Positions 3,521-27,140 of a DNA stretch of 37,482 nt are shown piece by piece. Within the stretch, counting starts at the first letter, position 1. Every line of letters starts with the position of its first letter. The stretch lies in the NCBI GenBank assembly GCA_003670925.1, contig QWQG01000212.1, forward strand, positions 1 through 37,482, written 5' to 3'. Both the position numbers and the translations under genes were made by a program. The notes below the pieces were generated by a model. It ran no database searches. It was not told the origin of the DNA and worked only from the letters and a program-made list of their open reading frames with translations. The DNA comes from Planctomycetota bacterium. Its GTDB lineage: Bacteria > Planctomycetota > Planctomycetia > Planctomycetales > Planctomycetaceae.

Positions 3521-4471
3521 ATGTCCGTAAACACAATGCCGAAGAACTCAGTTTCGACTCCGAACTTTACGGGAAAGCGACCACCACAAGTGGCCGTGGA
3601 AGCGTTTCCAATCTGCCCGGCATGTGGTCGCCCCGAGCAACAAGACACCACTCGACTGCGAATTGACTCAGCGCGGGGCAAATCATCGTGGGCAAAGTGT
3701 AACAGCTGTCGGGCGTACTACCTGACAGGCGAATATGATACTGCTGCGGAAGCGTGCCATACAGTTGATATGCCGTGGGGACAAATGCAGGCTGGCGTTC
3801 GCCTGAACGACTTCAAGAAACGCATGTATGATGCAGCGCTGGCCGGAATCAAGAAGCATGCTCCCGATGCAAAAAAAATCCTTGATGTGGGATGTTCATT
3901 TGGCGGATTTCTGATGGAAGCTCGCAATCAGGGTTATGATGGATCGGGCGTTGACATCGTCCCGGAAGCTGTTGACTATGTTCAGCAACAGGGTTTTGCG
4001 GCAGAGAAATGCGGATCTTTGGAGCATTGCCAACTTTTTTCTGACAAAAATCCAGTCGATGTACTGGCCGTTCTTGATGCCCACATCTACTGGCCAAATC
4101 AGCCAGCTGAACTCTCTGCGGCCTGGAGATTGATTAAGCCCGGTGGCTTGCTGGTTATGCGCGTCATCACAAAGTCACACTTTGTGTCGATTGGCAGGGT
4201 CATTAAACCCATCGCACCGAATTTCAGCAACCAGTTGATTCGGCGTTCGATTGGTGATCATCGCTTCTGTATGCCGCTCAAAACTCTGCTACAGACTATA
4301 GAATTCAGTGGATTCCGGATTGAGGATGTCGTGCCGCGAGACGCGCGGCACAGCGATGATTCGTCGATCGCCGTCCGAGCACTGTTTAAGATCGGCGATC
4401 TATCATGGAAAATGCTGCGGTGCCATCTGGCTCCGGGAGCGATGATCTATGCCAGAAAGCCGAACGCATGA
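3521..4471 (+). CDS. Zinc-ribbon class I SAM-dependent methyltransferase
   Basis: Cytoplasmic methyltransferase of 316 residues. A zinc ribbon lies at the N-terminus (C32-x2-C35 ... C60-x2-C63, motifs CPACG and CNSC). It is followed by a Methyltransf_23-like Rossmann domain with the SAM-binding motif ILDVGCSFGGFL (about 119-130), an acidic GVDIVPEA strand, and the post-motif LIKPGGLLVMRV. Members of this type sit in polysaccharide clusters and are usually presumed to methylate sugars or sugar nucleotides; the acceptor here is unknown. The frame is open from a TTG at 3494; the ATG at 3521 is preferred because it is the first ATG, though its ribosome binding site is weak. Its TGA overlaps the ATG of the next gene by four bases (ATGA), so the two are almost certainly co-translated. 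Confidence 0.82.
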   Translation: MSVNTMPKNSVSTPNFTGKRPPQVAVEAFPICPACGRPEQQDTTRLRIDSARGKSSWAKCNSCRAYYLTGEYDTAAEACHTVDMPWGQMQAGVRLNDFKKRMYDAALAGIKKHAPDAKKILDVGCSFGGFLMEARNQGYDGSGVDIVPEAVDYVQQQGFAAEKCGSLEHCQLFSDKNPVDVLAVLDAHIYWPNQPAELSAAWRLIKPGGLLVMRVITKSHFVSIGRVIKPIAPNFSNQLIRRSIGDHRFCMPLKTLLQTIEFSGFRIEDVVPRDARHSDDSSIAVRALFKIGDLSWKMLRCHLAPGAMIYARKPNA

Positions 4472-5757
4472 TCCCGCGACACCGGCCACCTTTCAGAATG
4501 GCCGCACTTACCGCCTCCATGCTGCCAGGTTTTGGCCCTCGCAGCGTCGAACAGCTTGAACAGGACTATGCTGACACACTGAATGTGCCACATGCGATAT
4601 GGCTGCCATCCGCTCGATACGGAATCTGCCAGGCCATTGACTTCGGGCTGGGCTCTCAGGATCGAGTCTATTGTCCCGCTTTTACATGCAAAGTGGTGCA
4701 TCAGGCGATCCGTCGATCCGGACGTACAATGGAACTCGTGGACTGCAACGACAACAGCCTGTTGATGGACACACGTTTTCTGCAGACGCAATTAGGGCCT
4801 GATCGTCAGCCACCTCAAACAACCTCCGCAGATGGCCGTCGGAACATACGAGGATACGGAGTCGTACTTTCGGAAGTCTTTGGTCATCGATATCCCAACT
4901 TAGATGGGCTCCCTTTATTGCGTAATGCTGGCCTGCGGATCTTCGACATGGCCATGTGTATTCCGACGGCGAGAGATATGCAGCGACTTGTCGACCGCGA
5001 TGTTGCGTTGCTTAGTTTTGGTCTGGGAAAGTCCTTATATGCCGGTTGGGGTGGTATGGCATTTACCAAAGACGACTGGATGGCAGATCGATTGCGAGAG
5101 CAACGAGATCAGGATCTTCGCGCGAATACGAAGGTGGCCAATGTACGCCAAGTCGCCAAGGTCTGGCTTCGAACGTTCGCTCATTCAGCGTGGCTGTACA
5201 AACTTTCCCGCCGGCTTGTCGAAAGTCGATCATCAGTCTCCAGTGACAACAGCAACCCACTGTCTGCTGAATCAGAACTACTGACACCGGAGTGGTCGAA
5301 CGCGCCCACGACCTTTCACTTAAAACTCGCGGCTGAAAACTTGAAGCAGTCCGCATCATTTTCACGTGATCGTCTCGAATACGCGGAGATCTACAGGTCG
5401 GAATTGGACCATTTGACGCACGATGCCGCACCTGGAACAGAAGGCTGGCTAACCCTGCTGGCTGATAGCCAGGCTGCGTTGAGTCACTTCTGCCTTCGCT
5501 CTTCCCTGCGGGATCCCCTGAGACAATATCTGTGGCTCAAGGGAATTGATACTTCGGTCCTGTTTCCGTTTCCCGAAGGTGCAGACTCAAATCAGTTGCA
5601 AAACACGCATCGCCTGACGCTGCAGATCATCGGATTACCATTGTCAAATGGGCTGGGTAGTCAAAACATTCGCCGTATCTGTTCGCTGATCAGAGACTTT
5701 ATCGCCACGGAATACGCGGCATCAAACCGACCACACGTATCACGCAACGCTGCATGA
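4468..5757 (+). CDS. DegT/DnrJ/EryC1-type sugar aminotransferase, divergent
   Basis: PLP-dependent aminotransferase fold of 429 residues, presumably adding an amino group to a keto-sugar nucleotide. The Schiff-base lysine is K188 in LSFGLGKSLYAGWGGMAF, which matches the family position (S..K....G.GG). The PLP-nitrogen aspartate is probably D160 in GLRIFDMAM, and the N-terminal substrate/PLP loop is at WLPSARYGI and YCPAFTCKVV. The ATG at 4468 is chosen over an upstream ATG at 4405 because it overlaps the stop of the methyltransferase gene as ATGA, the classic coupled arrangement. The family call is by motif, and the sequence is far from textbook members, so the product is uncertain. The protein ends VSRNAA, one of the Ala-Ala tails shared by unrelated enzymes in this locus. 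Confidence 0.75.
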   Translation: MIPRHRPPFRMAALTASMLPGFGPRSVEQLEQDYADTLNVPHAIWLPSARYGICQAIDFGLGSQDRVYCPAFTCKVVHQAIRRSGRTMELVDCNDNSLLMDTRFLQTQLGPDRQPPQTTSADGRRNIRGYGVVLSEVFGHRYPNLDGLPLLRNAGLRIFDMAMCIPTARDMQRLVDRDVALLSFGLGKSLYAGWGGMAFTKDDWMADRLREQRDQDLRANTKVANVRQVAKVWLRTFAHSAWLYKLSRRLVESRSSVSSDNSNPLSAESELLTPEWSNAPTTFHLKLAAENLKQSASFSRDRLEYAEIYRSELDHLTHDAAPGTEGWLTLLADSQAALSHFCLRSSLRDPLRQYLWLKGIDTSVLFPFPEGADSNQLQNTHRLTLQIIGLPLSNGLGSQNIRRICSLIRDFIATEYAASNRPHVSRNAA

Positions 5758-5942
5758 CACAGACCAACGCCCGGCTATGGGGCGGGCTTTCGCCGGGAAC
5801 TTGCAGTCTTCAGGCAAGCGGCAGAAATAAGCTGACCTGTCGTAGACGAAGTGGCCACGCTTTGCACGGGCAAGCCGATCTTTGAAGAGACACTCGCGAC
5901 GGCACAAAAATGCCTGCTGCCCGCCCAGGCAACAATCGCTTA

Positions 5943-6830
5943 TTATGCTGTCCGGCGGATTGGTGGTTGATTTGCATAGACGGACAAAGCTCCGGCCAAG
6001 CGGGCTGCGTATTCGTTCTGGACGCAGCCTACAGCTTTTCCCGCAAGTTGGGCTAAAGTACGTGGTACCGCAAATCCAAATGGTACTCGCAATTCAATTC
6101 GCTGCCCAATCGGCTGCTGTTCAAACCCCATTCGCCGCTTAAATAAGTCCAACGAAGTCATGGCAGACTGCAGAGACTGCAGGCCGATGCAGACTTCAGT
6201 TGTCTCTGCACGACTGAGCGTCTGTTGCAGGAATGTAAACAGCATGGCGTTGTTGGGGCGGAACTTGAGCAATTCTTCGCGTGATCGAACAATGCAGATG
6301 TTCTCCACACTGCAGATCCGAAATGAGATCAGAAACGAAGCCAAAATGCCTTGATAACGTGCCGCCCAGACAGTCGCTGACGGACACCTTGAAACCGCGT
6401 CAAAATATTTCCGCCAGTGAACCTCGTATCCGTCCGAGATCTTTCGTCCCTGACGTTGAAGCGTCTGCGCGTGCAGTTCGATCCCTTCGGTCGCTATTTC
6501 GCGAGCATCTTCTGGACCGTATGTGCAGTTTTCAAGCCCCTGGCGCGTTTGGTTACGTGCCTTCGGATCAAGGGAAGACAGACTGTAGTTTTTATCGGCA
6601 ACGACATGCCGAAAGCTGCTGAAACCTGATTCAACACTGCAGCAAAAACGTGCCATGACGTCGCGATCATGCATGATTTTCGATAAATCAATCGTTGCCG
6701 GGTTCAACTGGGTCTCCAGCGGGAAGCTGATCCAGGCACGCGAAAAAACGTCAAACCAATGGACACCACTGGATTCTCGTACCGTATGACCCATCCGCTC
6801 AAGGAACGCAGCATAATGGTGAGGCTGCAT
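5943..6830 (-). CDS. GNAT/FemAB-like N-acyltransferase
   Basis: Protein of 295 residues with the look of a FemAB/BioF2-type GNAT protein. It has an N-terminal half carrying SVESGFSSFRHVVADKNY and SLSSLDPKARNQTRQGLE, and a C-terminal acyltransferase-like half with ASFLISFRICSVENICI, LLKFRPNNAMLFTFLQQ and a final FKRRMGFEQQP. Such enzymes transfer acyl groups to amino sugars or amino acids, which would fit the neighbouring aminotransferase. The start ATG at 6830 has a good ribosome binding site (AAAGGA, 7 bases upstream). It lies 47 bases downstream of the methyltransferase gene 6878-7852 on the same strand and converges with the aminotransferase gene. It ends IRRTA, close to the Ala-Ala tails of its neighbours. 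Family assignment is moderate; no catalytic residue can be named. Confidence 0.6.
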   Translation of the reverse strand: MQPHHYAAFLERMGHTVRESSGVHWFDVFSRAWISFPLETQLNPATIDLSKIMHDRDVMARFCCSVESGFSSFRHVVADKNYSLSSLDPKARNQTRQGLENCTYGPEDAREIATEGIELHAQTLQRQGRKISDGYEVHWRKYFDAVSRCPSATVWAARYQGILASFLISFRICSVENICIVRSREELLKFRPNNAMLFTFLQQTLSRAETTEVCIGLQSLQSAMTSLDLFKRRMGFEQQPIGQRIELRVPFGFAVPRTLAQLAGKAVGCVQNEYAARLAGALSVYANQPPIRRTA

Positions 6831-11228: not shown

Positions 11229-11368
11229 CACGATTCCTTTCGACTTGTCTGATTCATGTCATACTTGTGCGGGGCTGAATTCATAATGGCTTGACGATTC
11301 GTTGACAATCAGATCAGGATGGTTCGTCCATCACGAATCAACCATTGACAAAGTCTGACTGGATCTGG

Positions 11369-11863
11369 CCGATGGCAATGACCGTTGCTCGTCACGCGGG
11401 TGCATGCTTTGTCAAAGTGACGGACGTCAATCCGCGGCGTTTGGAACTGGCGAAGAAAATGGGCGCGACACGCGCGGTCAACGTGAAGACTGAAACGCAG
11501 GAAGACGTGCAGCGTCAGCTGGGAATGGCCGAAGGGTTTGACGTCGGTATGGAAATGTCTGGCAATCCGTCTGCGTTTCGTGACATGCTGAAAAACATGG
11601 CGCATGGCGGAAAAATCGCGATGCTTGGTATTCCGTCAGAGGATATCTCCATCGACTGGAATCTGGTCGTGTTCAACATGCTCACGATTCACGGAATCTA
11701 CGGTCGGGAAATGTATGAAACCTGGTACAAAATGACCGTCATGCTGCAGAGCGGACTGGATATCAGTCCGGTGATCACGCATCGCCTGCATTACACCGAA
11801 TTTGAACAGGGCTTCGCGGCGATGAAGTCCGGGCAATCCGGCAAAGTCATCCTGAAGTGGTAG
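11369..11863 (+). pseudogene. tdh: 5'-truncated second copy of tdh (3' half only)
   Basis: From about the codon equivalent to M178 of the intact tdh at 2177-3199, this stretch is homologous to the end of the gene and finishes with the same GKVILKW. By hand alignment I count about ten amino-acid differences over about 163 residues, while the first 200 bases differ at roughly one base in eight. The changes are therefore mostly synonymous, which means the copy evolved under selection before it was cut. The N-terminal catalytic domain and all zinc ligands are missing, so it cannot be an active dehydrogenase, even though an ATG-started ORF runs in from 11345. The abrupt homology boundary marks a recombination junction. 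Confidence 0.9.
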
Positions 11864-12021: not shown

Positions 12022-12852
12022 TCAGGCCGCTTCAGGAATGGACACCAATTCGGACCGCCAGTCCCGGAGCGCAACGTGTTGCGCAAACGCAACGACGTTG
12101 CTGCGGTCATCTTTGAAATAGAAGCAGCGGAAGCCATGTGACTGGAGTAACCTGAACACAGCCGCCGAGCAACTACCAAACTTCTGAAGCGTATGTTCCA
12201 GCACTTCGATATAGATGCTGTCGACCATTTGGAGGATCGATTCACCTCCCCGCAAAACCTGCATTTCAAAACCCTCGACGTCAATTTTCATGACAGCAAT
12301 TCTTGAAATCGCATGTTCGTTAACCAGACTTGCGAGTGTCATACAGGGAACTCTGATTCCGGATTCAGCGTTCAGTGCGACGCAATTGTTATCGTCTTTC
12401 CGGCGTTCGTCAGTAAAGTTTACGATTCCAGCTTCGGCACCCAGTGCGATGTTGAGACTTGTCACGTTTGTGCAGTGATTAATGGCGATGGTCTTCTCAA
12501 GATGCTTGTACGTCTGCGGATGAGGTTCTACGGAATAGACATGTCCCGTTTCACCGACCGCCAGTGAGCCTGCGGCTGTGACGCAGCCGATATTTGCCCC
12601 GACATCGATCAGAGTATCTCCAGGCTTCAGGAAGTCGTACACAAATTCCTCGGCGCGATCGACATGATTCGGGTCCACCCACAGCGTCAGTGCCATGTTG
12701 CTCTTGGCAAAAAACGGGATCGTGTATTGTGAACGTTTCAGCTGGATGCGTTCTGAGAATCCGCTATTCTGAAGTGCATAGCCCCACAAGGCTCGGAACG
12801 GCCTTTTGAGTTTCGGACTTTCTGAACGGGCAAGTTTCTGGAGCAGATTCAT
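12022..12852 (-). CDS. FkbM family methyltransferase
   Basis: SAM-dependent O-methyltransferase of 276 residues, of the FkbM type common in glycan clusters. Motif I is DTLIDVGANIG (79-89), VYSVEPHP marks the end of strand 2 (about 105-112), and the family signature MKIDVEGFE is at 188-196. The start ATG at 12852 has a GAGGGA ribosome binding site. The gene is isolated from its same-strand neighbours by inverted REPIN-like repeats on both sides (11881-11977 and 13038-13133), which suggests it entered or moved as a cassette. The protein ends SIPEAA, another Ala-Ala tail. Confidence 0.88.
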   Translation of the reverse strand: MNLLQKLARSESPKLKRPFRALWGYALQNSGFSERIQLKRSQYTIPFFAKSNMALTLWVDPNHVDRAEEFVYDFLKPGDTLIDVGANIGCVTAAGSLAVGETGHVYSVEPHPQTYKHLEKTIAINHCTNVTSLNIALGAEAGIVNFTDERRKDDNNCVALNAESGIRVPCMTLASLVNEHAISRIAVMKIDVEGFEMQVLRGGESILQMVDSIYIEVLEHTLQKFGSCSAAVFRLLQSHGFRCFYFKDDRSNVVAFAQHVALRDWRSELVSIPEAA

Positions 12853-13290: not shown

Positions 13291-13808
13291 TCAGCGATCC
13301 GCAAGCGGCAGATTGTTAAGATGATCAAGCAGTGTGCCTTCCTGATCAAGGGAAGTATGAGTCAGAATCTCAATGGATGCGGTGGCAAGTCGATCGTTTG
13401 ATCGAAAGTGGGCAAAGTTATCGACCGTGCCGAAGTCGTCTGTGCCGCGCAGTCCGTGAAACGCGATCCAGCGGTTAAAGCATGACTTGGCAATGCGTTT
13501 TCGGGATGTAACGGGCAGCGAATCCATATTCCGCGAAATCCTGAGATGCCGGATTCCAAGGCGTTTAAGCACGGGCTGGATCGCCAGAAAAACCATCGGT
13601 TCATTGTGAACATGCTGATGCGAATCCGCGTGTGTTACCGGGAGTCCTGCGTCGCGACATCTCTGGATCTGAGCGGCCACCTCTGCGGCAATCATGGCTC
13701 GATCAGACTTCGAAATCAGAAGCGACGAAATCTGCCGGATGCCTCACACAACGCCGGATTGCTCCGCAGTTCAGGCAACAGAGGCCAGCCGTGGTGAGAT
13801 AGCTGAAA
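13291..13808 (-). pseudogene. YdjC/ChbG-type carbohydrate deacetylase remnant, 5'-truncated and frameshifted
   Basis: The frame starting at 13695 encodes the C-terminal part of a YdjC-family protein: AAQIQRCRDAGLPVTHADSHQHVH carries the family's metal-binding SHQHVH motif, followed by HLRISRN and, near the end, IEILTHTSLDQEGTLLDHL. Further upstream, in another frame (13808 down to about 13722), the DNA reads SHHGWPLLPELRSNPAL and EASGRFRRF, the segment expected just before in this family. One missing base near 13722 would rejoin the frames. The true N-terminus with the first aspartates is absent, replaced by the end of the HAD-type gene. I read it as a non-functional deletion product. Confidence 0.7.
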
Positions 13809-14764: not shown

Positions 14765-14779
14765 CGCCAATCGTCCCGG

Positions 14780-17951: not shown

Positions 17952-19076
17952 TCACGCGGCTTTGCGACTGACGATACCGGTTTGATGGATTCGGCTCCAT
18001 TCGTGTTCCCATGTCATTTCATCGCTGGACATCAGGGCCGTAGCATTGCGGGAAAACTGATCGAAGAGGGCCGTGTCTTCCGACAGCTTCTGCATCTGTA
18101 TCGCCAGTTGTTGTAAATTCAGGTCGCCGCCGATGAGCAATCCCACCTCTCGGCCATCGATCCACTCTGGAAATTCTCCCACGCGCGTGCCGATCACCGG
18201 CATCCCTAGCGCTAGGTACTCGAACAACTTTGTGCAATTAGTTCCGACAAGGTTGTAGCGTGGTGTGTTGGCCAGCAGTGCCAGTCCGCAACAGCGATGT
18301 GTTGCGGTGAAATCCTGAAACACTGAAGGTGTAACGCCGTTGTGAACCGTAATCCCCGGCATTTTCCGCAGTCGTTGGATCAGATTGGCGTCTCCTTCGC
18401 CAAAGACATGCAGTTCGGAATTCTGCTGAACGTGCTTCGACAGCAGTTGAAACGCTGCTGCGGCCGCGCCCACACCTTTCTCGGTGTAGACTCCACCGAT
18501 GTAGACGAAGCAGAGTTTGCCTGCCGGGGCGCGTGTGCGCCCGGATTCACGCCACACGGACGCCGGGAAATTGTGAATTTCCAGGACCGATGGTTGCCAA
18601 CGTTCCAAGTGGCGTTTGAGCGTCTGTTTGTCCATGTGAATACATGTGACAAGCGAAACCCACGGGAGGCAAATCCGATGAATCGAACGCACTAGCAGAC
18701 TGAAGACAATGCACTTCAGCCGTGAGCCACCGCCTTCGAGCGTATTGATTTCGTAATGATCGTGTTCATCGTAAAGGACAGGGACGCGGCGCATGAAACC
18801 GATGATGACCGCCAACGGTAGTACGATCCAGTGGAAGCACATGACTGCGGACAGCTTTGCCTTCGCGACCTGTCCAATGTCGACCGACATGCGTCCGATG
18901 CGACTGGGTACGGTGGGATTTTCAGACTTATCCAAGACCCACGCACCTCGCGGCAGTGCCCATGTTCTGATTCCCAGTCCATTCGACTGAATGCCCTCAA
19001 TGAACAGCGCCATGCGTTTGTTAACGACGCGGGATCCGTTCACGCAAAGGACGTAATGACTGGTCGTCGGCAACAC
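17952..19076 (-). CDS. GT-B glycosyltransferase (family 1/4-like)
   Basis: Retaining-type GT-B glycosyltransferase of 374 residues. The N-terminal domain has PVLYDEHDHYEIN and a hydrophobic stretch around WIVLPLAVIIGFM. The C-terminal donor domain has LCFVYIGGVYTEKGVGAAA, ELHVFGEGD, GITVHNGVTP, and the donor-binding acidic motif NCTKLFEYLALGMPVIGTRVGEFPE with the E-x7-E-like arrangement. The start is a GTG at 19076 with GGAAGA upstream. It is the most downstream gene of the minus-strand run and is followed by the MITE-like element. The protein ends IVSRKAA, an Ala-Ala tail. Donor and acceptor are unknown. Confidence 0.85.
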   Translation of the reverse strand: MLPTTSHYVLCVNGSRVVNKRMALFIEGIQSNGLGIRTWALPRGAWVLDKSENPTVPSRIGRMSVDIGQVAKAKLSAVMCFHWIVLPLAVIIGFMRRVPVLYDEHDHYEINTLEGGGSRLKCIVFSLLVRSIHRICLPWVSLVTCIHMDKQTLKRHLERWQPSVLEIHNFPASVWRESGRTRAPAGKLCFVYIGGVYTEKGVGAAAAAFQLLSKHVQQNSELHVFGEGDANLIQRLRKMPGITVHNGVTPSVFQDFTATHRCCGLALLANTPRYNLVGTNCTKLFEYLALGMPVIGTRVGEFPEWIDGREVGLLIGGDLNLQQLAIQMQKLSEDTALFDQFSRNATALMSSDEMTWEHEWSRIHQTGIVSRKAA

Positions 19077-19203: not shown

Positions 19204-20421
19204 TCAGTCGCCGCAGCCATGAAACAAAGTTGACTCCTGCGCTATCCTGTCATGCCGCTTTTGCCGAACGTCCTGTTGGAAATACCTGCGGTGAACCACG
19301 GGATTGCCCGGCAGTCTGACTTTCGCGCGAATCGCTATTCGCGCCTCATGCACGCAGGCCGCCAAAAGCAGCGTCATTCCCGGATACGTAAATGGCATTG
19401 CAGTCCACGAGTAGGACGCATAGGCGAGAATTGGAAGCGTCACGACAAATCGGTCTCGAGTTTGCAGGAGCGTTCTTGCTGGTAACGCAAGCAACAGCAG
19501 GATAAGCAATGAAAAAATGGTAGCGGACGGAATCCCCGTCTCCAGTGCAACCTGCACAAAATTGTTGTGCGCGTGATAGGTATCAATCACGGCGAGGGCT
19601 TTTTTCGGGCCGCCCGGGCCAACGCCCAGCATGGGATGCGTTTTGACATGATCCCAGGCCACGCGCCAGATCAAGGAGCGAGGCGCGACAGGTTTATATC
19701 CCACGAATCGAAGTCTGACCAGCACATTATAAACGAGCGGAATCTGAAGAATGCCGTCGAGTGAAGAGGCGACTCCAAAGATGACACCAACTACCACGAC
19801 CGCCATTCGCTTGTGATTGAACAGGAAGTACAACGTCAGAATAATCAGCATCGCTCCGATGCCATTTCGTGACATGACGACCACCACGGCGATACAATTG
19901 AGACAGATCAGTGCGATATAGGCCAGTCTCTTCTGTCCGGTAGATGCACGAATCCGAACGAGAATGAGTGGCAACGTCATGTTGATCTGCGCTGCCATTA
20001 CATTCGCGCCTCCGGTCGGATTGGAGATTTGCCATGCCTTCAACGGTTCCGCATCATATCCCTGGTACAGAACCCATCCTGTCAGCAGCAGATTGGTTCC
20101 CATCATCAGTTGCTGACAGAAACTCGAAAGATCCCGCGACGAAAACGCCAGGCCGATGAGAGCCACATACATGGACAAAACATGAATGGTGCTCGAGAAT
20201 GGTGAAGTATTTGCTTCCGACGATACCAGGGCGATCACGACCATGGAGATCGTCCCGATCAGAAACACCGGGTAAACGCTGGCGTCACGTCGAACAATTG
20301 TCGATGCGGCGAAAATCACAGTCACGATACTTCCACCCACAATCGTAATGTCATGCGACACGGCGGATGTCATTCCGGTGGTGATCAACGTGGCAAAGAG
20401 GGCGGCGATCGTTGTGGACAT
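19204..20421 (-). CDS. Wzy/WaaL-like polysaccharide polymerase or ligase, 3' frameshift
   Basis: Integral membrane protein of about 400 residues with ten or more hydrophobic segments. It has the conserved O-antigen ligase/polymerase loop: WDHVKTHPMLGVGPGG followed by VIDTYHAHNNFVQVALETGIP, whose HAHN motif is typical of the Wzy_C/WaaL family. Such proteins polymerise or ligate lipid-linked repeat units at the periplasmic face. The ORF is open upstream to 20460, but those 13 residues are encoded by heptamer repeats; the ATG at 20421 gives a natural membrane start. The last residues (HRRYFQQDVRQKRHDR...) look wrong. In the next frame the DNA reads SPQVFPTGRSAKAA and stops at 19252..19250. One missing G near 19291-19305 would give that end and another Ala-Ala tail. 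Confidence 0.82.
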   Translation of the reverse strand: MSTTIAALFATLITTGMTSAVSHDITIVGGSIVTVIFAASTIVRRDASVYPVFLIGTISMVVIALVSSEANTSPFSSTIHVLSMYVALIGLAFSSRDLSSFCQQLMMGTNLLLTGWVLYQGYDAEPLKAWQISNPTGGANVMAAQINMTLPLILVRIRASTGQKRLAYIALICLNCIAVVVVMSRNGIGAMLIILTLYFLFNHKRMAVVVVGVIFGVASSLDGILQIPLVYNVLVRLRFVGYKPVAPRSLIWRVAWDHVKTHPMLGVGPGGPKKALAVIDTYHAHNNFVQVALETGIPSATIFSLLILLLLALPARTLLQTRDRFVVTLPILAYASYSWTAMPFTYPGMTLLLAACVHEARIAIRAKVRLPGNPVVHRRYFQQDVRQKRHDRIAQESTLFHGCGD

Positions 20422-20428
20422 CGGAGGA

Positions 20429-20479
20429 GGATTGAGGATTGAGGATTGAGGATCCGTCACTAGCTACTAGCCACTATGA
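20429..20479. repeat. Two different heptamer tandem repeats filling an operon spacer
   Basis: Plus-strand units are GGATTGA three times plus a partial fourth unit (20429-20456), then ACTAGCT, ACTAGCC, ACTATGA (20459-20479). Both have an exact 7-base period. They occupy nearly all of the gap between the flippase stop and the Wzy-like start. Confidence 0.85.
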
Positions 20480-20481
20480 AT

Positions 20482-21897
20482 TCAGGCGGCTCGGGCTGGT
20501 GCAACGGGAACGTCGGGGACTGAGGAATTCTTCCACAAGCTTTGTTTTGGGCGGCTGCGTATTGTTTGTTCCAATGCGGGCGGACTTTCATGGAATGCCT
20601 GCGTAACACGCAAATAAGGCAGCATTACGAGACCTCGATGCTGATAGATCGTTGTAAAGACAATAATATTCCACAGACAACGCGCTGCGAAGTACGAAAA
20701 TGCGGTGCCTTCAATTCCAGCGACTTTGCCGAACCCATAGACCAGACACAATTGAATTGGAATAAACGCGAAGAGGGCCCGTGAATAATTTCGTTCCATC
20801 TTCATCGTTTGCATCACCGGGATCGTAGGTCCCGTCAGGCTGTCCACTATCACTCCCAATAGCAACGGTGCCAACAGGCGGCAGACCATTCGGAATTCTT
20901 CTCCAAGAACGGTCAGCAGTAGAGGTGAGCAGATCCAGATCATGATGCTAAGCACAGCGGCGAGCAGGAAAGTCACGGTGGCCGCGCTGCGGACAGCATG
21001 GCTGGTTGCAGCAAACTCTCCGCGATTGTAGTGCCGGGCACAGCGAGGAATTATGGAAAGGTTGAAAACCCCTAAAGGAATCGACGCCAGCGTAGCGTAT
21101 GGCAACGCCAGCGAGAAATACGCGGTTTCTTCAAAGCCGCATGTCGCCGCAATCACGAGCGGCATACACGACTGTGTCAGCAGGCTTCCGATGCCAATGC
21201 ATACGAATGGCCGACCGTCTCGAAACTGTCTACGAATATCCGATCGACCAACGCTCAGAATAGCGTTCCACGCTGAACGATACACGCTGCGAATCGGCTC
21301 CGCCTGCAGCGATCCGATCCAGACTATTGACATCACGATTGCATACGTCGAAGCCGCGATTGCAGCATTCGGCTTCCAGCCAGCCGCAGCCAGCAGCAAC
21401 AGGCTTGTCGTAAAAACGAGCGGAAGAATTGTTTGTTCCGGGATCAGAGCGCGACGACTGCCAATGAGCGGTATCGCCAGCCATTGTCGCAGATAGACGA
21501 CAGCCAGCGGCACAAACATACCTGTGGCCAGCAAGCAGGTTCGAGCACATGGTGGGTTGTAAAATACAAAACTGTTGACGAACCATGCTGTCAATATCCC
21601 GCACAGCAGCAATGTAGCGACAATTGCCGTACACAGATGAGCGATCGTGGTTTCGCGACCTGTTTCTTCCGGACATTTTGGGCTGGACAGACTTCGGACA
21701 AGAATGCGATCGGTTCCCAGTGGGGCGAGTGCTGCCAGCAACACCGCCAGAGCCAGTGCGGCGCTGTAAGTCCCGTATTCCTCAGGACCGAGGAGTCGGG
21801 CAGTGACAGTCGTCGATACGAACATGAGCGCAATGCCAACCATTCGCACAACAAATGTGCCGAAGGCGTCGGAGAGCGTTGTAGATGGTTTGGGCAT
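20482..21897 (-). CDS. Wzx-like oligosaccharide flippase
   Basis: Polytopic membrane protein of 471 residues with about 12 to 14 hydrophobic segments, of the MOP/PST flippase type that moves undecaprenyl-linked repeat units across the inner membrane. The N-terminus (SDAFGTFVVRMVGIALMFVSTTVTARLLGPEEYGTYSAALALA) matches the typical Wzx start, with a GPEEYG turn after helix 1. A cluster of hydrophobic helices continues to about residue 430. The remaining tail is polar and ends VAPARAA. The ATG at 21897 has no Shine-Dalgarno; a pyrimidine-rich heptamer repeat lies directly upstream on the coding strand. Paired with the Wzy-like gene, it makes this a Wzx/Wzy-type locus. Confidence 0.88.
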   Translation of the reverse strand: MPKPSTTLSDAFGTFVVRMVGIALMFVSTTVTARLLGPEEYGTYSAALALAVLLAALAPLGTDRILVRSLSSPKCPEETGRETTIAHLCTAIVATLLLCGILTAWFVNSFVFYNPPCARTCLLATGMFVPLAVVYLRQWLAIPLIGSRRALIPEQTILPLVFTTSLLLLAAAGWKPNAAIAASTYAIVMSIVWIGSLQAEPIRSVYRSAWNAILSVGRSDIRRQFRDGRPFVCIGIGSLLTQSCMPLVIAATCGFEETAYFSLALPYATLASIPLGVFNLSIIPRCARHYNRGEFAATSHAVRSAATVTFLLAAVLSIMIWICSPLLLTVLGEEFRMVCRLLAPLLLGVIVDSLTGPTIPVMQTMKMERNYSRALFAFIPIQLCLVYGFGKVAGIEGTAFSYFAARCLWNIIVFTTIYQHRGLVMLPYLRVTQAFHESPPALEQTIRSRPKQSLWKNSSVPDVPVAPARAA

Positions 21898-21963: not shown

Positions 21964-23073
21964 TCATGCGGCGCGGCGGGAGGGTCTTGCGGCGGAAACC
22001 GGGATTGTGGTTCGCATGTAGGGGGCCAGCAGATCGTGGTTCAGGCAAAAATCGCCAAGATCTTCAAGAGACATCGAATTACCTGGCGAACTGACGTACG
22101 GATCGGTAACGTTGGTGTTCACGATATCCGCGTAGTCATACGCGATATCTTCGTAGACGTTGCGGAAGGCCGGCATCACGGCGAACATCTCGGTCAGTTC
22201 CACCGTGCGGCGAGTTTCTTCGTCGCTCATCAGTTCTTCGTACAGCTTTTCGCCGGCCTTGGCTCCGATTTCCGTGATCGGCATCTTTGACGGGTCGATG
22301 CCGTTCTGCGGTGCCAGCTCATCGATCATCACTCGAGCGAGGTCTGCAATCTGAATTACGGGCATTTTGGTGACGAACACTTCGCCGCCACGAGCTTTTT
22401 CAGCGGCCGACAGTACCAGCCGACAGCTTTCTTCGAGTGTCATGATGAAACGCGTCATCCGTCTGTCGGTCAGCGTTACCGGACCTCCGGCTTCAATCTG
22501 TCTCGCAAAAATCGGGATGACGGAGCCCCGTGACCCCAGCACGTTTCCGAATCGCGTCGAGCTGAAAATTGTACGGCGACCCATCTTCAGGCTGTTGGCG
22601 GCAGTAATCAGTCGTTCGCCCATCAGCTTGGATGTTCCCATCACATTCGTGGGATTTACGGCCTTGTCCGAACTGGTGAAGATGACGCGTTCCACATCGT
22701 TCAGGAGTGCCGCCTGAATGACATTTTTGACCCCCATGATATTGGTCTGCACGGCATCAAAGGGGGCTCGCTCGCAGAGGATGACGTGCTTCAGAGCGGC
22801 GGTGTGCAGAACAATATCCACCCCGACGCACATCATATTGAGTTTGTCGGCGTCCCGAATATCGCCGATCTGACACAGGCTGGAGATATTGCTGCTCGGG
22901 TTGTGGCGGCGATGGTCCATCAGTTCCTGTTCAAGGAAAAAGATTTCCGACTCGTTCGTATCCACGACGCGGATTTCGCGGGGATCATGATCCAGCAACT
23001 GCCGGACAATTTCGCGACCAACTGTGCCGCAGCCACCGGTGACGAGGACGGTCTTGTTAAAGAAGAATGACAT
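21964..23073 (-). CDS. CapD/PseB-type UDP-sugar 4,6-dehydratase/epimerase (extended SDR)
   Basis: NAD(P)-dependent sugar nucleotide enzyme of 369 residues. The cofactor loop is VLVTGGCGTVGREIV (about 9-23). HTAALKHV is the family's A-A-x-K-H-V motif. The active-site segment is FTSSDKAVNPTNVMGTSKLMGE, in which Met replaces the usual Tyr of the YxxxK motif, as in CapD/PseB/FlaA1 relatives. FSSTRFGNVLGSRGSVIPIF and TDRRMTRFIMT follow and are also typical. Such enzymes convert UDP-GlcNAc to 4-keto-6-deoxy sugars, the substrate for DegT-type aminotransferases such as the one at 4468-5757. The exact stereochemistry cannot be read. The C-terminus has an extra tail of about 25 residues ending PSRRAA. 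An upstream heptamer repeat replaces any obvious ribosome binding site. Confidence 0.88.
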   Translation of the reverse strand: MSFFFNKTVLVTGGCGTVGREIVRQLLDHDPREIRVVDTNESEIFFLEQELMDHRRHNPSSNISSLCQIGDIRDADKLNMMCVGVDIVLHTAALKHVILCERAPFDAVQTNIMGVKNVIQAALLNDVERVIFTSSDKAVNPTNVMGTSKLMGERLITAANSLKMGRRTIFSSTRFGNVLGSRGSVIPIFARQIEAGGPVTLTDRRMTRFIMTLEESCRLVLSAAEKARGGEVFVTKMPVIQIADLARVMIDELAPQNGIDPSKMPITEIGAKAGEKLYEELMSDEETRRTVELTEMFAVMPAFRNVYEDIAYDYADIVNTNVTDPYVSSPGNSMSLEDLGDFCLNHDLLAPYMRTTIPVSAARPSRRAA

Positions 23074-23149: not shown

Positions 23150-23155
23150 CAGTCA

Positions 23156-24100
23156 CTACGCTGCTCGATGCCGGTAGAGGGCGGGATCTACCGTCGCGGC
23201 CATTGCGTTCAGGTCGAGGGATTCATTAAAGTGACGATTGATCTGAGCGATCACCGACTCGGGACGAGAAAGAAGTTCGTTGTAGCTGACGTTGATGAGT
23301 TTCAGGTGTGTCTGTGATGGGAGCCAGATGTAGAATTTTCGAAGTTGGCGTTCAAACAACGTCTTCATCGTGTTGTCAGCAATATCAGTCTCGATGCCGT
23401 TGCGTTGCAGCATTGCCTTTTGAGACTGCAGGATTTCACCGACATCACGCCGCATAAAGACGATGCGATAGTCGAGGTCGGTGGGCAGATGTTCGAGGAG
23501 GCTGTACACCATTTTGACCGAATGTCCGGGGGCTCGATCAATCCAGGTCGTATAGTTTTCGATGCTCTTCACATCTTCGAATTCGTAGTAGCCGTTCGGA
23601 TTGTCTTCGTCCGGTGTTCGCAATTCGTCCGTGAGTGCCGGGATGCCGCCGGCCGCTAGCATTCGCATCATCATGGATGTGCCGGAACGCGGCAGACCGG
23701 AGACGATCGTGATGTACGGCCGCTCAGAAATCTCCTCTTCGGATTCAGCCTGTTCCGCGACAGAATCGTCGGCGATCTGCGGCATGGATTCCTCCGCTTT
23801 TTTCAGGAGAGTCATCATTTGCCCTTCCGTGAGTGCACCGGTCCTGCGATCGACCGGCTTGCCGTCTGCGAAGGCGATGAATGTGGGAACTCCGCTGACC
23901 TCGTATTGTCCGGCCAAGTTGGGGCAACGGTCGATGTTGACGGAATATACGTCAGCCCAGTCGTCAACCGTTGTCGCCATTCGATCGACGACTGGTTGCA
24001 TCATCTTGCACGGCGGGCACCACGACGCCCAGAAATCCACCAGCACCGGCCGGGCGGACTTAAGCACCATTTCTTCGAAATCAATCTCGCGAATTTCCAT
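23156..24100 (-). CDS. Thioredoxin-sulfotransferase fusion protein
   Basis: Protein of 314 residues with two domains. Residues 1-105 are a complete thioredoxin: VLVDFWASWCPPCKMM with active-site WCPPC at 27-31, the cis-proline loop SGVPTFIAF at 69-77, and a C-terminal helix. An acidic linker (about 107-127) leads to a sulfotransferase domain with P-loop IVSGLPRSGTSMMMRML (GLPRSGTS at 135-142), a DENPNGYYEFE segment, RIVFMRRDVGEILQSQ as the 3'-phosphate site, and VSYNELLSRPESVI. No signal peptide is visible, so both parts act in the cytoplasm. The thioredoxin could couple redox state to sulfation or serve the sulfur supply; this is inference. It ends LYRHRAA. The domain assignment is firm, the reason for the fusion unknown. 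Confidence 0.9.
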   Translation of the reverse strand: MEIREIDFEEMVLKSARPVLVDFWASWCPPCKMMQPVVDRMATTVDDWADVYSVNIDRCPNLAGQYEVSGVPTFIAFADGKPVDRRTGALTEGQMMTLLKKAEESMPQIADDSVAEQAESEEEISERPYITIVSGLPRSGTSMMMRMLAAGGIPALTDELRTPDEDNPNGYYEFEDVKSIENYTTWIDRAPGHSVKMVYSLLEHLPTDLDYRIVFMRRDVGEILQSQKAMLQRNGIETDIADNTMKTLFERQLRKFYIWLPSQTHLKLINVSYNELLSRPESVIAQINRHFNESLDLNAMAATVDPALYRHRAA

Positions 24101-24113
24101 GGGAAGGAGTCTT

Positions 24114-24141: not shown

Positions 24142-24173
24142 TCGCAGGGTTTACCACAGAGGTCATTCTGCAG

Positions 24174-25652
24174 CTACGCCGCTGGCCGCCATGTTTCCAG
24201 CACTTCCAGCTTGCCATGTTCGCCCGACCATTTTGTTTTCGGGAACAGCGTGTCGCGCTGCGACAGGATGCGCGCACGCGCCTCGGGTTGTGTGAGGACT
24301 TGAAACAGATGCCGCACTTCGGATGCGAAACCCGATTCGGACTGGAATCCGAAACGTTCGCTGAGTTTCTCGTGAATGACCTCGTAGGGATGCTCTTCCG
24401 CCTCGACACGAGGATTTTCGATTCGCTGGACTTCGACATCCAGTCCGAATTCAACGCCAATCGCGGCCACCATTTTGGCAATCTGCAGCACGCTGAACAC
24501 ATCCGTGACCTGATTCACGACATCATACTGACCGGGTTCCGGCGGAGCCGCGATCAATCGCGTAATACACTGCATGGCGTCGCGGAGCGTGATGTAACCG
24601 CGTTTTTGATTCCCGCTGCCGTAGATCGTCAGGGGCATCCCGATGACAGCCTGAGCCACAAAGCGATTGACGACCGTGCCCCACCATTCGTCGATATCCA
24701 GCCGTGTATTCAGATCCGCATGAGCCGTCAGTTCTTCGGAGTAGTTGCCGTAGATGACTCCCTGCATGACGTCGTAACTTCGCAGCCACCAGTATTTGCA
24801 GGCTTCGTAAACACTGTACGTGCCTTGGACCTTGCTGACGTGATAAAAACTGACCGGATCGCGCGGCGTGAGTTCTCCGCCAAGGCTCCATTCCTTCCCC
24901 TGATATTGCAGCACTGCATCTCCGGGGAAGAGGCCTTCGAACAGCGGGCGACCGGTGAGGGGACTGCCGTATTCACCCATGGTTCCGAGCTTGATGATGC
25001 AGGCATCCGGAGCGTGATCGCGGACACCGAACAGCAATCCCAGTGTTCCTACGACGTTGTTCTGAATCGTGTTCACCGCCTTTTCGACGGACGCCATGCT
25101 GTAGGGAGCACTTGGGATTTCTGCGAACTGCACGATGGATTCCGGCTGGACTTCTTTGATATACGCAAAGAGCGCCTCACGATCCATCAGATCGATTTCG
25201 CGGAATTCGATGTCAACACCCAGATGTTGATTGGCCGCTTTGATCCGGTCTGCCATCGATTGAATCGGCGTGACTGAATGTGCACCGCGTTCTTCCACGA
25301 GTTTTCGTCGCAGCATGTTGTCGATGCCGTAGACTTTGCAGCCAAGTTTTGCCAGCTTGAGCGCGAGCGGCCAGCCCAGATATCCGTCCATGCCGAGGAT
25401 GAGCACGCGCATGCCGTCGAGTAGATAGCCGCTGTCAGTCTTCTTCCATTCCGAGCACGATTCAAACGTGATCGACATCGGATCGAAGTAGCCAATTTCC
25501 GGACGTCGCTTGCATTCCACAACCAGCTGCCCCTGAGCCGCCTTGCGAAACGCCGCCTGTCCGCAGGCGCGAAAATCGACGTGGCCCTTGAATTCCACCG
25601 CCGGACAACTCCAGCAGGTCTGATTGGCATTATGGCAGGATGATTCAGTCAT
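24174..25652 (-). CDS. SQD1-like NAD-dependent sugar nucleotide enzyme (UDP-sulfoquinovose synthase-like) with Cys-rich N-terminus
   Basis: Extended SDR of 492 residues. From residue 81 it closely follows the SQD1 pattern: MRVLILGMDGYLGWPLAL (NAD loop), IDNMLRRKL, HSVTPIQSMADRI, IPSAPYSM, IIKLGTMGEYGSP with T224, SFYHVSKVQG with Y270 and K274, VMQGVIYG, RGYITLRDAMQCI and NPRVEAEEHPYEV. SQD1 makes UDP-sulfoquinovose from UDP-glucose and sulfite, so a sulfonated sugar is plausible; another epimerase activity is the alternative. About 80 extra residues precede the domain and carry Cys 6, 13, 16, 30, 47 and 66 (including TCWSC), perhaps a zinc or Fe-S module. If M81 were the start, the protein would have canonical length. 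It ends ETWRPAA. Confidence 0.82.
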   Translation of the reverse strand: MTESSCHNANQTCWSCPAVEFKGHVDFRACGQAAFRKAAQGQLVVECKRRPEIGYFDPMSITFESCSEWKKTDSGYLLDGMRVLILGMDGYLGWPLALKLAKLGCKVYGIDNMLRRKLVEERGAHSVTPIQSMADRIKAANQHLGVDIEFREIDLMDREALFAYIKEVQPESIVQFAEIPSAPYSMASVEKAVNTIQNNVVGTLGLLFGVRDHAPDACIIKLGTMGEYGSPLTGRPLFEGLFPGDAVLQYQGKEWSLGGELTPRDPVSFYHVSKVQGTYSVYEACKYWWLRSYDVMQGVIYGNYSEELTAHADLNTRLDIDEWWGTVVNRFVAQAVIGMPLTIYGSGNQKRGYITLRDAMQCITRLIAAPPEPGQYDVVNQVTDVFSVLQIAKMVAAIGVEFGLDVEVQRIENPRVEAEEHPYEVIHEKLSERFGFQSESGFASEVRHLFQVLTQPEARARILSQRDTLFPKTKWSGEHGKLEVLETWRPAA

Positions 25653-25686
25653 GTTTCGAAAACCCGTTTCCGTGCACTCAGCGATT

Positions 25687-25718: not shown

Positions 25719-25751
25719 ATTGCAATTCATTGGATATTTAGTGATTGAAGT

Positions 25752-25833
25752 AGGGTGTGTGCAGCGCCAGCGGAACACACCAGTTTCTCACGGCTTCCTA
25801 AAATGGTGCGTTGCGCTCCGCTGCACGCACCCT
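25752..25833. repeat. Inverted repeat with GGTGCGTGCAGCG-type arms
   Basis: Arms of about 30 bases (25752-25782 and 25804-25833) are imperfect inverted copies: AGGGTGTGTGCAGCG on the left against the complement of AGGGTGCGTGCAGCG on the right. They are separated by about 20 bases. Each arm is itself nearly palindromic (GGTGNGT...ACNCACC). It is a REPIN/MITE-like structure without coding capacity. Confidence 0.7.
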
Positions 25834-25853
25834 CCGACGAAGTACCCGAGGGC

Positions 25854-27140
25854 TTACGCCGCTCGGCTTACCAACTGCGATTGGCGTGGCATAACAACGT
25901 CCAGCACGTTTTCGACTTTCATGTCGGCGGGAATCTTTCCGAGACGTTCGCCTCGGACAAAGAACGAAGATTCTTCATACGTATGCTTCCCGTTAATACG
26001 TGTCGTTTCCACAAGTTCAGATAGATTCACGCGGCCTGAAAGTGCGATGTCCTTGGCAGCCATCACAATGAGATCCGGGGCCCGGTGAGCGAATGGGCCG
26101 CTGTAAACGTCTTTGCCGCGAATCACTTCGCTGGCGATGGGCTGACCGTTGACGCTGGCGTTCTGGAAGAAGGTCGTCAGTTGCTGCATCAGTGATTCTG
26201 CTTCGTCGGCGGCCACAGTGCCACCGGGATAGCGTCCCTGACGATGCAGGTAGATTCGACCCGGATCCATCGCGAATGCTTTAGTTTCCGGCAGCATGTC
26301 GATATAGGACGGTCGCTGAGATTCTTTAAGCCGCAGGAAGCCATTTTCCGCCAGCAGACAGTTCAGGTTTACACTCATACGTTGCCGCGCAAACCCGTGA
26401 TCGGAGACGGCAGCGAGCGTGACGTCGTCGTCGAGTCGTTCCAAGATGCGGCCGATCTGATGATCCACTTCGTGATAGTAATCTAGAAATGTTTGATGGA
26501 ACGGCGATGTTGTGTCTTCGTAATCTTCCCACAGGTAGTGATTCAACCGATCGGTGCCAGTGAACACGAACATGATGTTCTGCCACGGTTCCCGATTCCA
26601 ATGATGATGCAGAGCCTGACAACGCGCGGCCATGACGCGATGCAGTTCGTCCACGAATTTCTGCTTGCCCTTTTCAACCAGCGACATGTCAGCATCGACC
26701 GCGTAGCCAATACTTTCCAGCCATGCGAGTTCTTCCGGCGGATGGACGGCTCGCTTGAGATCCAATGCCACAAAGCCGGATACCAGCATCCCGGGCATAG
26801 GCTGAGCCGGATACGTCTGCGGCACGTTCAGGATGAGACTGGGGCCAGCCCCCTCGCGCGCCCAGAACGGTTTGGATCGAAACGTGCGCGACGACGTGAA
26901 GCCCAGTGTATAGCTGCCGTCCATCAGATCCGTGAAACCGAAAACATTGTGACCACCCGAGTTTTCACCCGTCACAATTGAGGCCCAGGCGGCGGATGAG
27001 ACTTCCGGCAACGCGGATTTCATGGGAACCAGCGTACCTGTTTTCAGCAACTGCTGACTGTGAGGCATCACACCGGAATTGGCAAATTGCTGCCACATCC
27101 AGCGCGGGAGTCCGTCGATTCCGAGTAAAAACATGTTCAT
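25854..27140 (-). CDS. Alkaline phosphatase superfamily (type I phosphodiesterase/nucleotide pyrophosphatase-like) protein
   Basis: Metal-dependent phospho- or sulfo-ester hydrolase fold of 428 residues. Visible sites are FLLGIDGLPRW (first metal Asp), PEVSSAAWASIVTGENSGGHNVFGF around the nucleophile position, FVFTGTDRLNHYLWEDY (metal Asp and His), VTLAAVSDHGFARQ (metal Asp-His) and a late NGKHTYEESSFFVRG histidine. No signal peptide is seen, so it is cytoplasmic. The AP superfamily also includes sulfatases and phosphoglycerol transferases, so the substrate is open. Three starts are possible (GTG 27146, ATG 27140, ATG 27134); ATG 27140 is eight bases from GGAGG and is preferred. It ends LVSRAA, encoded where the gene runs into a REP-like repeat. 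Confidence 0.8.
   Translation of the reverse strand: MNMFLLGIDGLPRWMWQQFANSGVMPHSQQLLKTGTLVPMKSALPEVSSAAWASIVTGENSGGHNVFGFTDLMDGSYTLGFTSSRTFRSKPFWAREGAGPSLILNVPQTYPAQPMPGMLVSGFVALDLKRAVHPPEELAWLESIGYAVDADMSLVEKGKQKFVDELHRVMAARCQALHHHWNREPWQNIMFVFTGTDRLNHYLWEDYEDTTSPFHQTFLDYYHEVDHQIGRILERLDDDVTLAAVSDHGFARQRMSVNLNCLLAENGFLRLKESQRPSYIDMLPETKAFAMDPGRIYLHRQGRYPGGTVAADEAESLMQQLTTFFQNASVNGQPIASEVIRGKDVYSGPFAHRAPDLIVMAAKDIALSGRVNLSELVETTRINGKHTYEESSFFVRGERLGKIPADMKVENVLDVVMPRQSQLVSRAA

Follow-up and report, generated by a model that had tools for sequence, protein, structure and literature searches.

The ssrA (tmRNA) tag, which is added at stalled ribosomes, ends in a free C-terminal Ala-Ala, as do the ssrA-type ClpX degrons of class C-M1. 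E. coli LpxC, a classic FtsH substrate, is recognized via a short nonpolar C-terminal signal. Within the ssrA tag, Ala-Ala-COO(-) is the element most important for ClpXP, and it is contacted by six ClpX residues, Y153, V154, T199, V202, R228, and H230 in E. coli numbering (excerpt of PMC7652416). A native Ala-Ala end is present in 67/71 orthologues of the Streptomyces regulator sigma-AntA, which ClpXP degrades and which is stabilized by Asp-Asp (excerpt of PMC7142297). In Caulobacter, ClpXP and ClpAP act on cell-cycle proteins such as FliF, TacA, and CtrA, and CpdR, RcdA, and PopA serve as adaptors of this type of proteolysis. The excerpts of PMC8973945 and PMC8119881 describe FliF and the sigma-54 activator TacA as Clp protease substrates, with ClpAP as the main protease for FliF (PMC8119881). 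No tagged glycan assembly line was found in the literature searched, nor was any description of degrons in planctomycetes, most subscription papers lying outside the coverage of that search.

We analyzed a window of 37,482 nucleotides from a Planctomycetota bacterium, in which 8/18 called ORFs of a glycan locus end in Ala-Ala (Table 1), compared to 17/979 ORFs in a sample of the same genome (Fisher P = 2e-9) and 0/9 of the other called ORFs of the window. Unlike the ssrA tag, this ending is gene encoded and is found on many unrelated proteins. A native conserved Ala-Ala is shared with sigma-AntA; however, the degron is proven there (excerpt of PMC7142297), whereas here it is proposed from sequence, and in place of one regulator we find a locus-long, genome-spread set that includes biosynthetic enzymes and flagellar parts. 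With the substrates in the Caulobacter excerpts, the set has in common the MS-ring protein and, likened by protein type only, a sigma-54 activator, but SspB was not found here. In contrast to E. coli LpxC, Ala-Ala closes LpxC in 12/16 family members and 10 of these 12 read [RK]AA, among the best 30 of 55 matches.

Table 1. Ala-Ala ends and related features of the glycan locus (positions in the window)
Feature	Position	Strand	C-terminus	Ala-Ala codons
DegT/DnrJ-type aminotransferase	4468..5757	+	VSRNAA	5749-5754
GNAT-like ORF	5943..6830	-	RRTA (near-match to the signal)	
FkbM methyltransferase	12022..12852	-	SIPEAA	12025-12030
GT-B glycosyltransferase	17952..19076	-	VSRKAA	17955-17960
Wzy-like gene (long ORF)	19204-20460	-	HGCGD	
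Wzy-like gene (alternative frame)		-	GRSAKAA-stop	19253..19258
Wzx-like flippase	20482..21897	-	APARAA	20485-20490
CapD/Polysacc_synt_2 enzyme	21964..23073	-	PSRRAA	21967-21972
Thioredoxin-sulfotransferase fusion	23156..24100	-	YRHRAA	23159-23164
SQD1-like NAD-dependent epimerase/dehydratase	24174..25652	-	ETWRPAA	24177-24182
Type I phosphodiesterase-like enzyme	25854..27146	-	LVSRAA	25857-25862

The genome sample comprised 100 stretches (1,600,536 bases, about 28% of the genome), in which ORFs were called with a home-made hexamer caller. Its 17 Ala-Ala ends (1.7%) compare to the 9.2 predicted when the frequencies at positions -1 and -2 are taken separately. The count of 18 leaves out a dehydrogenase fragment inside the locus (11345-11863), which was placed among the nine other ORFs, and a methyltransferase ORF (3494-4471, ending PNA) was uncalled and is absent from both window counts. 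A sequence-only reading of the window had reported nine of about sixteen genes at a chance near one percent per protein. All eight intact ends that it named are present, as is RRTA on the GNAT-like ORF; its gene count becomes 8 of 18 plus Wzy in another frame and its chance was set slightly low, both without consequence for its conclusion. Its remark that the visible non-glycan genes lack the ending fits the 0/9 found here, and an equal frequency of Ala-Ala genome-wide, which it had set as a refutation, was not observed. Ala-Ala was chosen post hoc as the test ending, and the relatives, a separate test, agreed strongly. Genes preceding the locus in relatives carried it in just 3/99 cases, and of eight homologues that the locus genes have in other parts of the genome sample, only one did. 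A search of the genome for the [RK]AA pattern (204 matches, compared to 258 with a reversed control pattern) was uninformative alone, and in the 30 loci only a single ORF ending in the motif, the known long CapD gene (L180), had a positive coding score.

Relatives were assessed in 28 near-relative loci chosen from 79 by record label and identity, after merging identical tails of the last 25 residues. A locus labelled Gemmatimonadetes (L071, 71% identical, no terminal Ala-Ala) was left out, and Phycisphaerae records (57-59% identical) were treated as outside the set. The enrichment expected for homologous glycan loci was indeed strong in near relatives: 25/25 homologues of the phosphodiesterase, 22/22 of the CapD-like enzyme, whose tails otherwise diverge, 24/27 of the thioredoxin-sulfotransferase, and 5/5 of the GT-B glycosyltransferase, the window's own included, end in Ala-Ala. 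Five loci encode thioredoxin and sulfotransferase separately; both proteins are Ala-Ala-ended in four of these (L064, L065, L066, and L068), and the thioredoxin alone is in L069. For the SQD1-like enzyme, the ending was found in 16/19 unique tails from near-relative loci and in 0/48 full-length homologues beyond them; sulfotransferase matches from other genera or families (L037-L040 and L042-L048) lacked it in all 11 cases. The aminotransferase has a single relative with a homologue (L054, 55% identical, ending PVAA), and the FkbM methyltransferase has a sole homologue among the loci (L073), which is 26% identical and lacks a terminal Ala-Ala.

The first reading took the tail to mark the whole assembly machinery, a claim that does not hold. 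Only 4/14 homologues of the Wzx-like flippase and 2/6 of the counted Wzy ORFs carry it, and the family-2 glycosyltransferase and the second sulfotransferase of the locus are inconsistently tagged or untagged. In Wzy, the long frame aligns with a relative's Wzy over residues 1-379, and this relative ends in KSARAA. Together with the alternative frame, this supports, in line with the earlier suggestion, a probable frameshift, caused by sequencing error or real mutation.

The last two residues are conserved while the tails drift. With the tails aligned at their right ends, columns -1 and -2 had an identity of 1.00 in the phosphodiesterase (n = 25), CapD (n = 22), GT-B (n = 5), MotA (n = 12), sigma-54 activator (n = 17), and, among the best 30 of 56 matches, ClpX (n = 11) families, and most columns from -5 to -12 in these six families had identities of 0.05 to 0.36. 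Seven families of these loci that served as controls, with divergent tails and no Ala-Ala, reached only 0.00 to 0.33 at -1 and -2; three more families without Ala-Ala were excluded as controls because their entire ends are conserved. In the phosphodiesterase and the CapD-like enzyme, the ten residues preceding Ala-Ala are only 20 to 24% identical among relatives, and past residue 334 of the CapD alignment no column is invariant except the final two. SQD1-like tails vary in length, all closed by Ala-Ala (WKPAA, WKPSEVAKGAA, WKPEIKDKAA, WKPSMEAGDDQAEAA). All four alanine codons and all three stops are in use at these ends, and the phosphodiesterase family alone has 12 distinct Ala-Ala codon pairs among 26. 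The differing tails and codons exclude a copied DNA end, and the pattern is at the protein level, as had been proposed; the genome sample and the column statistics likewise rule out chance or composition as its source. The ending is thus enriched, limited to certain genes, and conserved amid diverging surroundings. In the CDP-alcohol transferase, it occurs in 8/17 same-genus genomes with a match and is absent from the rest.

Position -3 is Arg or Lys in 23/25 phosphodiesterase, 19/22 CapD, and 17/17 sigma-54 activator tails, with SQD1-like tails (2/16) and ClpX (0/11, among the best 30 of 56 matches) as exceptions. In a structure model of CapD, the last 14 residues have pLDDT values below 50, yet the model is poor overall (mean, 60.8). 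PEP-CTERM tails combine a C-terminal PEP motif, a transmembrane helix, and a basic cluster on secreted proteins; an exosortase-type sorting tail of this kind was rejected here, as the tails by eye do not fit and, judged by Pfam type, most of the proteins are cytoplasmic enzymes. The sorting tail named as an alternative in the sequence-only reading gained no positive support.

The Ala-Ala ending extends beyond glycan genes, to which it had been thought peculiar: FliF, MotA, LpxC, a sigma-54 activator, ScpB, and ClpX share it as a conserved end. FliF carries it in 11/13 family members, compared to 0/6 in sister families of the class (L247 and L261, which are cut, and L265, a family member whose gene was not resolved, were left out; weak sister-family matches L262-L264 were uncounted, and none of the ORFs listed for them has it). 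The corresponding values are 12/12 and 1/7 for MotA, where weak paralogues L344-L348 and L350-L355 were left out and L349, a second copy in G012, was kept; for LpxC, 2/12 in sister families, among the best 30 of 55 matches; and 11/11 and 0/15 for ClpX, among the best 30 of 56 matches and omitting L304, L311, and L323, for which no full-length ORF was obtained. All 17/17 family members of the sigma-54 activator end in Ala-Ala, or 16/16 without L383, which was retained despite 32% identity, having a variant of the REYGYPPRGGPGSN stretch. L372, cut by a contig end, was omitted, as were L379 and L382, taken to be paralogues at about 34% identity since they lack REYGYPPRGGPGSN, and both without a terminal Ala-Ala; weak sister-family matches (L375-L378, L380, L381, L384, and L385) were uncounted, none being Ala-Ala-ended. 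ScpB, chosen as a negative control (Ala-Ala without Arg or Lys at -3), failed as such, with 20/20 family genomes examined keeping the ending (24 other family genomes had a match, of which G006, G019, G023, and G024 were left out; the frame assigned in L458 and L459 depends on a weak match). The signal is therefore broader than [RK]AA, no Ala-Ala-ended family provided a clean negative, and families without an Ala-Ala end serve as controls.

The degradation machinery of the genome makes the parallel with ssrA and ClpX, drawn beforehand, an apt one. The genome's own tmRNA tag is AKPQFSLAA, thus ending in LAA. The ClpX zinc finger has one match in the genome, and the GYVG, SITRDV, and GGRKHP stretches of this ClpX are identical to those of a chain of 6wr2/6wrf, presumably E. 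coli ClpX. All six of the tag-contacting residues listed in the excerpt of PMC7652416, located in the aligned sequences by their letter and spacing, are present. The SspB adaptor (PF04386) was found in 0/40 genomes, the positive controls in E. coli and Caulobacter being detected. The native tails mismatch the tmRNA tag at -3, which is mostly Arg or Lys and not Leu, so the affinity of ClpX for them may differ from that for the tag.

We propose, with a probability of roughly 63%, that the terminal Ala-Ala-COO(-) is a native, gene-encoded degron of the ssrA/C-M1 type read by ClpXP. In this planctomycete family, unrelated cytoplasmic or cytoplasm-facing proteins would carry a tail that drifts fast, is probably flexible, and closes with Ala-Ala, preceded in most tagged families by Arg or Lys. 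Besides the core of the glycan assembly line, the tagged set would include LpxC, the sigma-54 activator, ScpB, ClpX, and, from the flagellum, the M-ring and motor proteins. The ClpX pore would bind the free Ala-Ala carboxylate and ClpXP would then degrade the protein, jointly lowering the levels of envelope- and motility-building enzymes, for instance, at a growth or cell-type switch. We infer that the tails are flexible and cause turnover, and that this turnover is timed; the reader would be ClpXP instead of FtsH, ClpAP, or Lon.

Reading of the degron by FtsH (or ClpAP or Lon) is unlikely in our estimate. Several tagged proteins lie in the membrane (FliF, MotA, and Wzx) or are the FtsH substrate LpxC, and in Caulobacter it is mainly ClpAP that degrades FliF (excerpt of PMC8119881). 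However, CapD, the SQD1-like enzyme, the phosphodiesterase, ScpB, and the sigma-54 activator, all expected to be soluble, have the same end, and Ala-Ala-COO(-) matters most for ClpXP (excerpt of PMC7652416), with the contact residues kept in the ClpX present here. The membrane proteins and LpxC would, for their part, suit FtsH equally well.

A scaffold or PDZ-like protein that binds Ala-Ala-COO(-) and gathers enzymes at one site could account for tagged glycan enzymes of one pathway and, presumably, for MS-ring and motor proteins sharing a site. We regard such docking as quite improbable, though on weak grounds: a single site would not be anticipated for ScpB, LpxC, ClpX, and a transcription activator, and the signal is just two residues matching the best-known bacterial degron end. 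Selection at the RNA or translation level, such as for efficient termination, could draw on the influence of the last two residues on termination and of C-terminal composition on bacterial expression (excerpt of PMC7246954), but every Ala codon and stop is used within the phosphodiesterase family and only 1.7% of sampled ORFs, in particular gene families, have the ending, which makes it very improbable. That the ending has no function and reflects common descent and alanine-rich composition seems hardly credible: about nine ends are expected by chance, so some of the 17 may be chance, and orthologues within the genus share kinship, but at least eight families keep -1 and -2 invariant or nearly so while the preceding tail has little identity.

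Beyond the ClpXP degron itself, a wider scheme is possible, and we put it forward tentatively: a proteolysis code of the Planctomycetaceae in which about 1 to 2% of proteins, selected for what they do (assembling surface glycans, forming the flagellar base and motor, committing to lipid A, condensing the chromosome, or acting as a sigma-54 regulator), would carry clade-specific [RK]AA or acidic-AA tails read by ClpXP without SspB, the tag on ClpX would form a self-limiting loop, and one protease switch would reset surface and motility. A tag on ClpX itself is odd unless self-limiting. The kind of signal is already known; its spread over an assembly line and over envelope and motility proteins looks new. 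If the proposal is true, planctomycete proteins that are deliberately destroyed could be listed from two residues and their conservation, and a biosynthetic line would be tagged enzyme by enzyme, the cases compared here (Caulobacter regulators and sigma-AntA) being mostly single regulators. The GNAT-like ORF, which has no Pfam match, shares its RRTA end with two sister-family LpxC tails (L269 and L271).

Eight of the 18 ORFs called in the glycan locus of the window end in Ala-Ala (AA), while none of the nine other called window ORFs does, which bears out the sequence-only reading that this end is shared by many unrelated enzymes from a single glycan locus and that the non-glycan genes of the window lack it. 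ORFs were taken from an ORF listing and a simple, home-made hexamer gene caller. Pfam supports the protein types: DegT aminotransferase, FkbM methyltransferase, GT-B, Wzx, CapD/Polysacc_synt_2, thioredoxin plus sulfotransferase, type I phosphodiesterase, and NAD-dependent epimerase, the last being the protein earlier named SQD1-like. The frameshift suspected in the Wzy gene is also likely: the other frame gives GRSAKAA followed by a stop, and the Wzy of a relative's locus (L053) ends in KSARAA.

As a background, we sampled 100 stretches of the window's genome (1,600,536 bases, about 28% of the genome). AA ended 17 of the 979 sampled ORFs; multiplying out the individual frequencies at positions -1 and -2, counted from the C terminus, would give 9.2. 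The AA share of the glycan locus is far above that of the sample (Fisher P = 2e-9, AA having been chosen post hoc), and the ending is thus not equally frequent in all proteins of this genome (17/979 sampled versus 8/18 in the locus). Position -3 was Arg or Lys in 7 of the 17 sampled AA ORFs, compared to 13.6% expected (binomial P = 0.005). The [RK]AA ends accordingly numbered 7 versus 1.2 expected, and the remaining ten AA ends were near their expected number (7.9).

Scanning the named genomes with the SQD1-like protein yielded 79 loci, 28 of which (titled planctomycete, SQD1-like identity of at least 65%) formed our near-relative set, in which genes were then called. Conservation was counted on unique tails, that of the window included, with two slightly different collapsings. 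All phosphodiesterase (25/25 or 26/26, depending on the collapsing), CapD (22/22 or 23/23), and GT-B (5/5) tails ended in AA, as did 24/27 thioredoxin/sulfotransferase and 16/19 or 19/22 SQD1-like tails. In the comparison that had been suggested, AA is therefore enriched in the homologous glycan loci of near relatives, these five core families being mostly or wholly AA ended. Same-genus rows are interdependent, and the weight of the comparison comes from the divergence of the tails: in phosphodiesterase, CapD, and GT-B, the last two residues are 100% identical versus 20 to 24% for the preceding ten, while identity at -1/-2 is 0 to 33% in seven control families, drawn from the same loci, whose tails diverge and lack AA. 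In the CapD alignment, the two terminal alanines are the sole invariant columns past residue 334. SQD1-like proteins end mostly in WKPAA or WRPAA, others in WKPSEVAKGAA, WKPEIKDKAA, or WKPSMEAGDDQAEAA, and a few exceptions in PAE, PVA, or PSA; across the AA-ended forms, the tail has changed length while keeping its end.

Where thioredoxin and sulfotransferase are unfused, both end in AA in four loci (L064 to L066 and L068), and in a fifth (L069) the thioredoxin does and the sulfotransferase does not. The two are separate adjoining genes in these five loci, whereas the window and the relatives closest to it have them fused; in distant bacteria and archaea, too, thioredoxin-like ORFs directly follow SQD1-like genes. 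Outside the near-relative set, AA was found in 0/48 full-length SQD1-like homologues (archaea, varied bacteria, and some Phycisphaerae), and in 0/11 sulfotransferase matches from other genera or families among the genomes searched. Within the near-relative loci, AA ended 3/99 genes upstream of phosphodiesterase and 110/193 from phosphodiesterase onward, the latter count falling to 13/90 once the five core families are set aside. The ending thus mostly leaves out the flanking genes, and its presence varies among accessory genes (Wzx, 4/14; Wzy, 2/6; family-2 glycosyltransferase, 0/6).

Features of the window and of other loci, with coordinates
Sequence	Positions	Feature	Observation
Window	2177-3199	Zinc dehydrogenase	
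Window	11345-11863	Truncated second copy of the zinc dehydrogenase (3' half)	Inside the glycan locus; 500 bases aligned, 87.6% identical to 2177-3199
Window	13291-14770 (region)	YdjC-like ORF	Only profile positions 99-229 of 266 matched; looks truncated
Window		HAD/FkbH-like ORF	Adjoins the YdjC-like ORF; may also be incomplete
Window	19204-20460	Wzy-like ORF	Frame break near the 3' end likely by comparison with L053; error or true mutation
Window	23156-24100	Thioredoxin-sulfotransferase	Fused
L069 (record titled Pirellulaceae)	493-2973	Wzz plus ParA-type ATPase protein (Pfam), beside the locus	Ends RRAA
L069	6156-8072	CapD-like long protein beside the locus	Ends RRAA
L013	2204-4122	Two genes after lpxC	End ERKVA and AAKVA

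By Pfam, the 17 sampled AA ORFs include another CapD-type enzyme (a long one), FliF, MotA, LpxC, ClpX, a sigma-54 activator, a DegT aminotransferase, a hexapeptide-repeat protein, ScpB, and a CDP-alcohol transferase; those without an obvious link are a P450, an ABC ATPase, an AAA_22 ATPase, an APH-type kinase, a class V aminotransferase, a CxxCxxCC protein, and an ExbB-like protein. Relatives were compared for seven of the 17 families, the counts leaving out some cut, weak, or paralogous rows. AA was present in the window's family versus sister families of the class in 11/13 versus 0/6 FliF, 12/12 versus 1/7 MotA, 12/16 versus 2/12 LpxC (best 30 of 55 matches), and 11/11 versus 0/15 ClpX (best 30 of 56 matches), all 15 of the latter ending in SA. 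The sigma-54 activator carried it in 17/17 proteins of the family. ScpB, picked as a negative control, proved conserved (20/20 family genomes examined); the residues before its AA are mostly acidic, not basic. Of 17 same-genus genomes in which the CDP-alcohol transferase was matched, eight had it ending in AA and a ninth had an AA-ended fragment, the rest lacking the ending; its AA tails differ (SETKAA, SETRAA, DSEAA, and DTDAA). When locus genes had homologues in other parts of the genome sample, 1/8 of these ended in AA. Because AA is mostly kept in FliF, MotA, LpxC, the sigma-54 activator, ClpX, and ScpB, and largely missing from these homologues, it is not specific to glycan enzymes. The idea of a shared tail of glycan enzymes holds for the core families but has to be widened: the ending belongs to particular chosen proteins throughout the window's family and not to glycan enzymes as such.

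Of the roles proposed for the tail, degron or sorting signal, we favor a native degron, with ClpXP as its most likely reader. The main rival is that FtsH reads it, and E. coli LpxC is indeed turned over by FtsH via its C terminus. ClpXP is favored by analogy, since, according to PMC7652416, Ala-Ala-COO(-) is the main ssrA-tag element for ClpXP, is contacted by six ClpX residues, and ends other native degrons. The tmRNA tag of the window's genome is AKPQFSLAA. Judged by letter and spacing, this genome's ClpX has the six contact residues, lying in stretches (GYVG, SITRDV, and GGRKHP) identical to those of E. coli ClpX. SspB was not found in the 40 genomes searched. A precedent is sigma-AntA of Streptomyces, a proven native degron with AA in 67/71 orthologues (PMC7142297). 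In Caulobacter, Clp proteases degrade FliF and the sigma-54 activator TacA, the loss of TacA being cell-cycle dependent and FliF being among the listed cell-cycle substrates (PMC8973945 and PMC8119881). We infer that the AA set comprises proteins whose amount should drop at a change of growth or cell type. Planctomycetes of this group alternate between swimming and attached cells, and FliF was matched in 25 of 57 genomes searched, so some members may be without flagella. Several findings count against a degron: position -3 is mostly Arg or Lys versus Leu in the ssrA tag, for some genes AA presence varies among relatives, and the 11 sulfotransferase matches from other genera or families lack AA. 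The predicted CapD structure is poor (mean pLDDT 60.8), its last 14 residues scoring below 50, as do core stretches, so the tail is only possibly flexible.

The C-terminal Ala-Ala degron is already known; its proposed clade-wide, multi-gene use looks new. A literature search, run mostly without subscription papers, retrieved neither planctomycete degrons nor any glycan assembly pathway whose enzymes are tagged for ClpXP.

Several variants of the ending were seen. ClpX (L296 to L325) ends in SAAA in 11/11 members of the family and in SA in 15/15 of sister families, inner residues varying, and these terminal residues are a possible self-degradation signal. The VA ends after lpxC in L013 may be a variant of the signal; the lpxC loci of two relatives (L285 and L287) hold ORFs ending in KAAA and ERKAA. 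LpxC itself is Ala ended in 10/12 proteins of sister families (L266 to L289), for example, RRTA, RRSA, or LLSA; this may be a separate signal related to AA.
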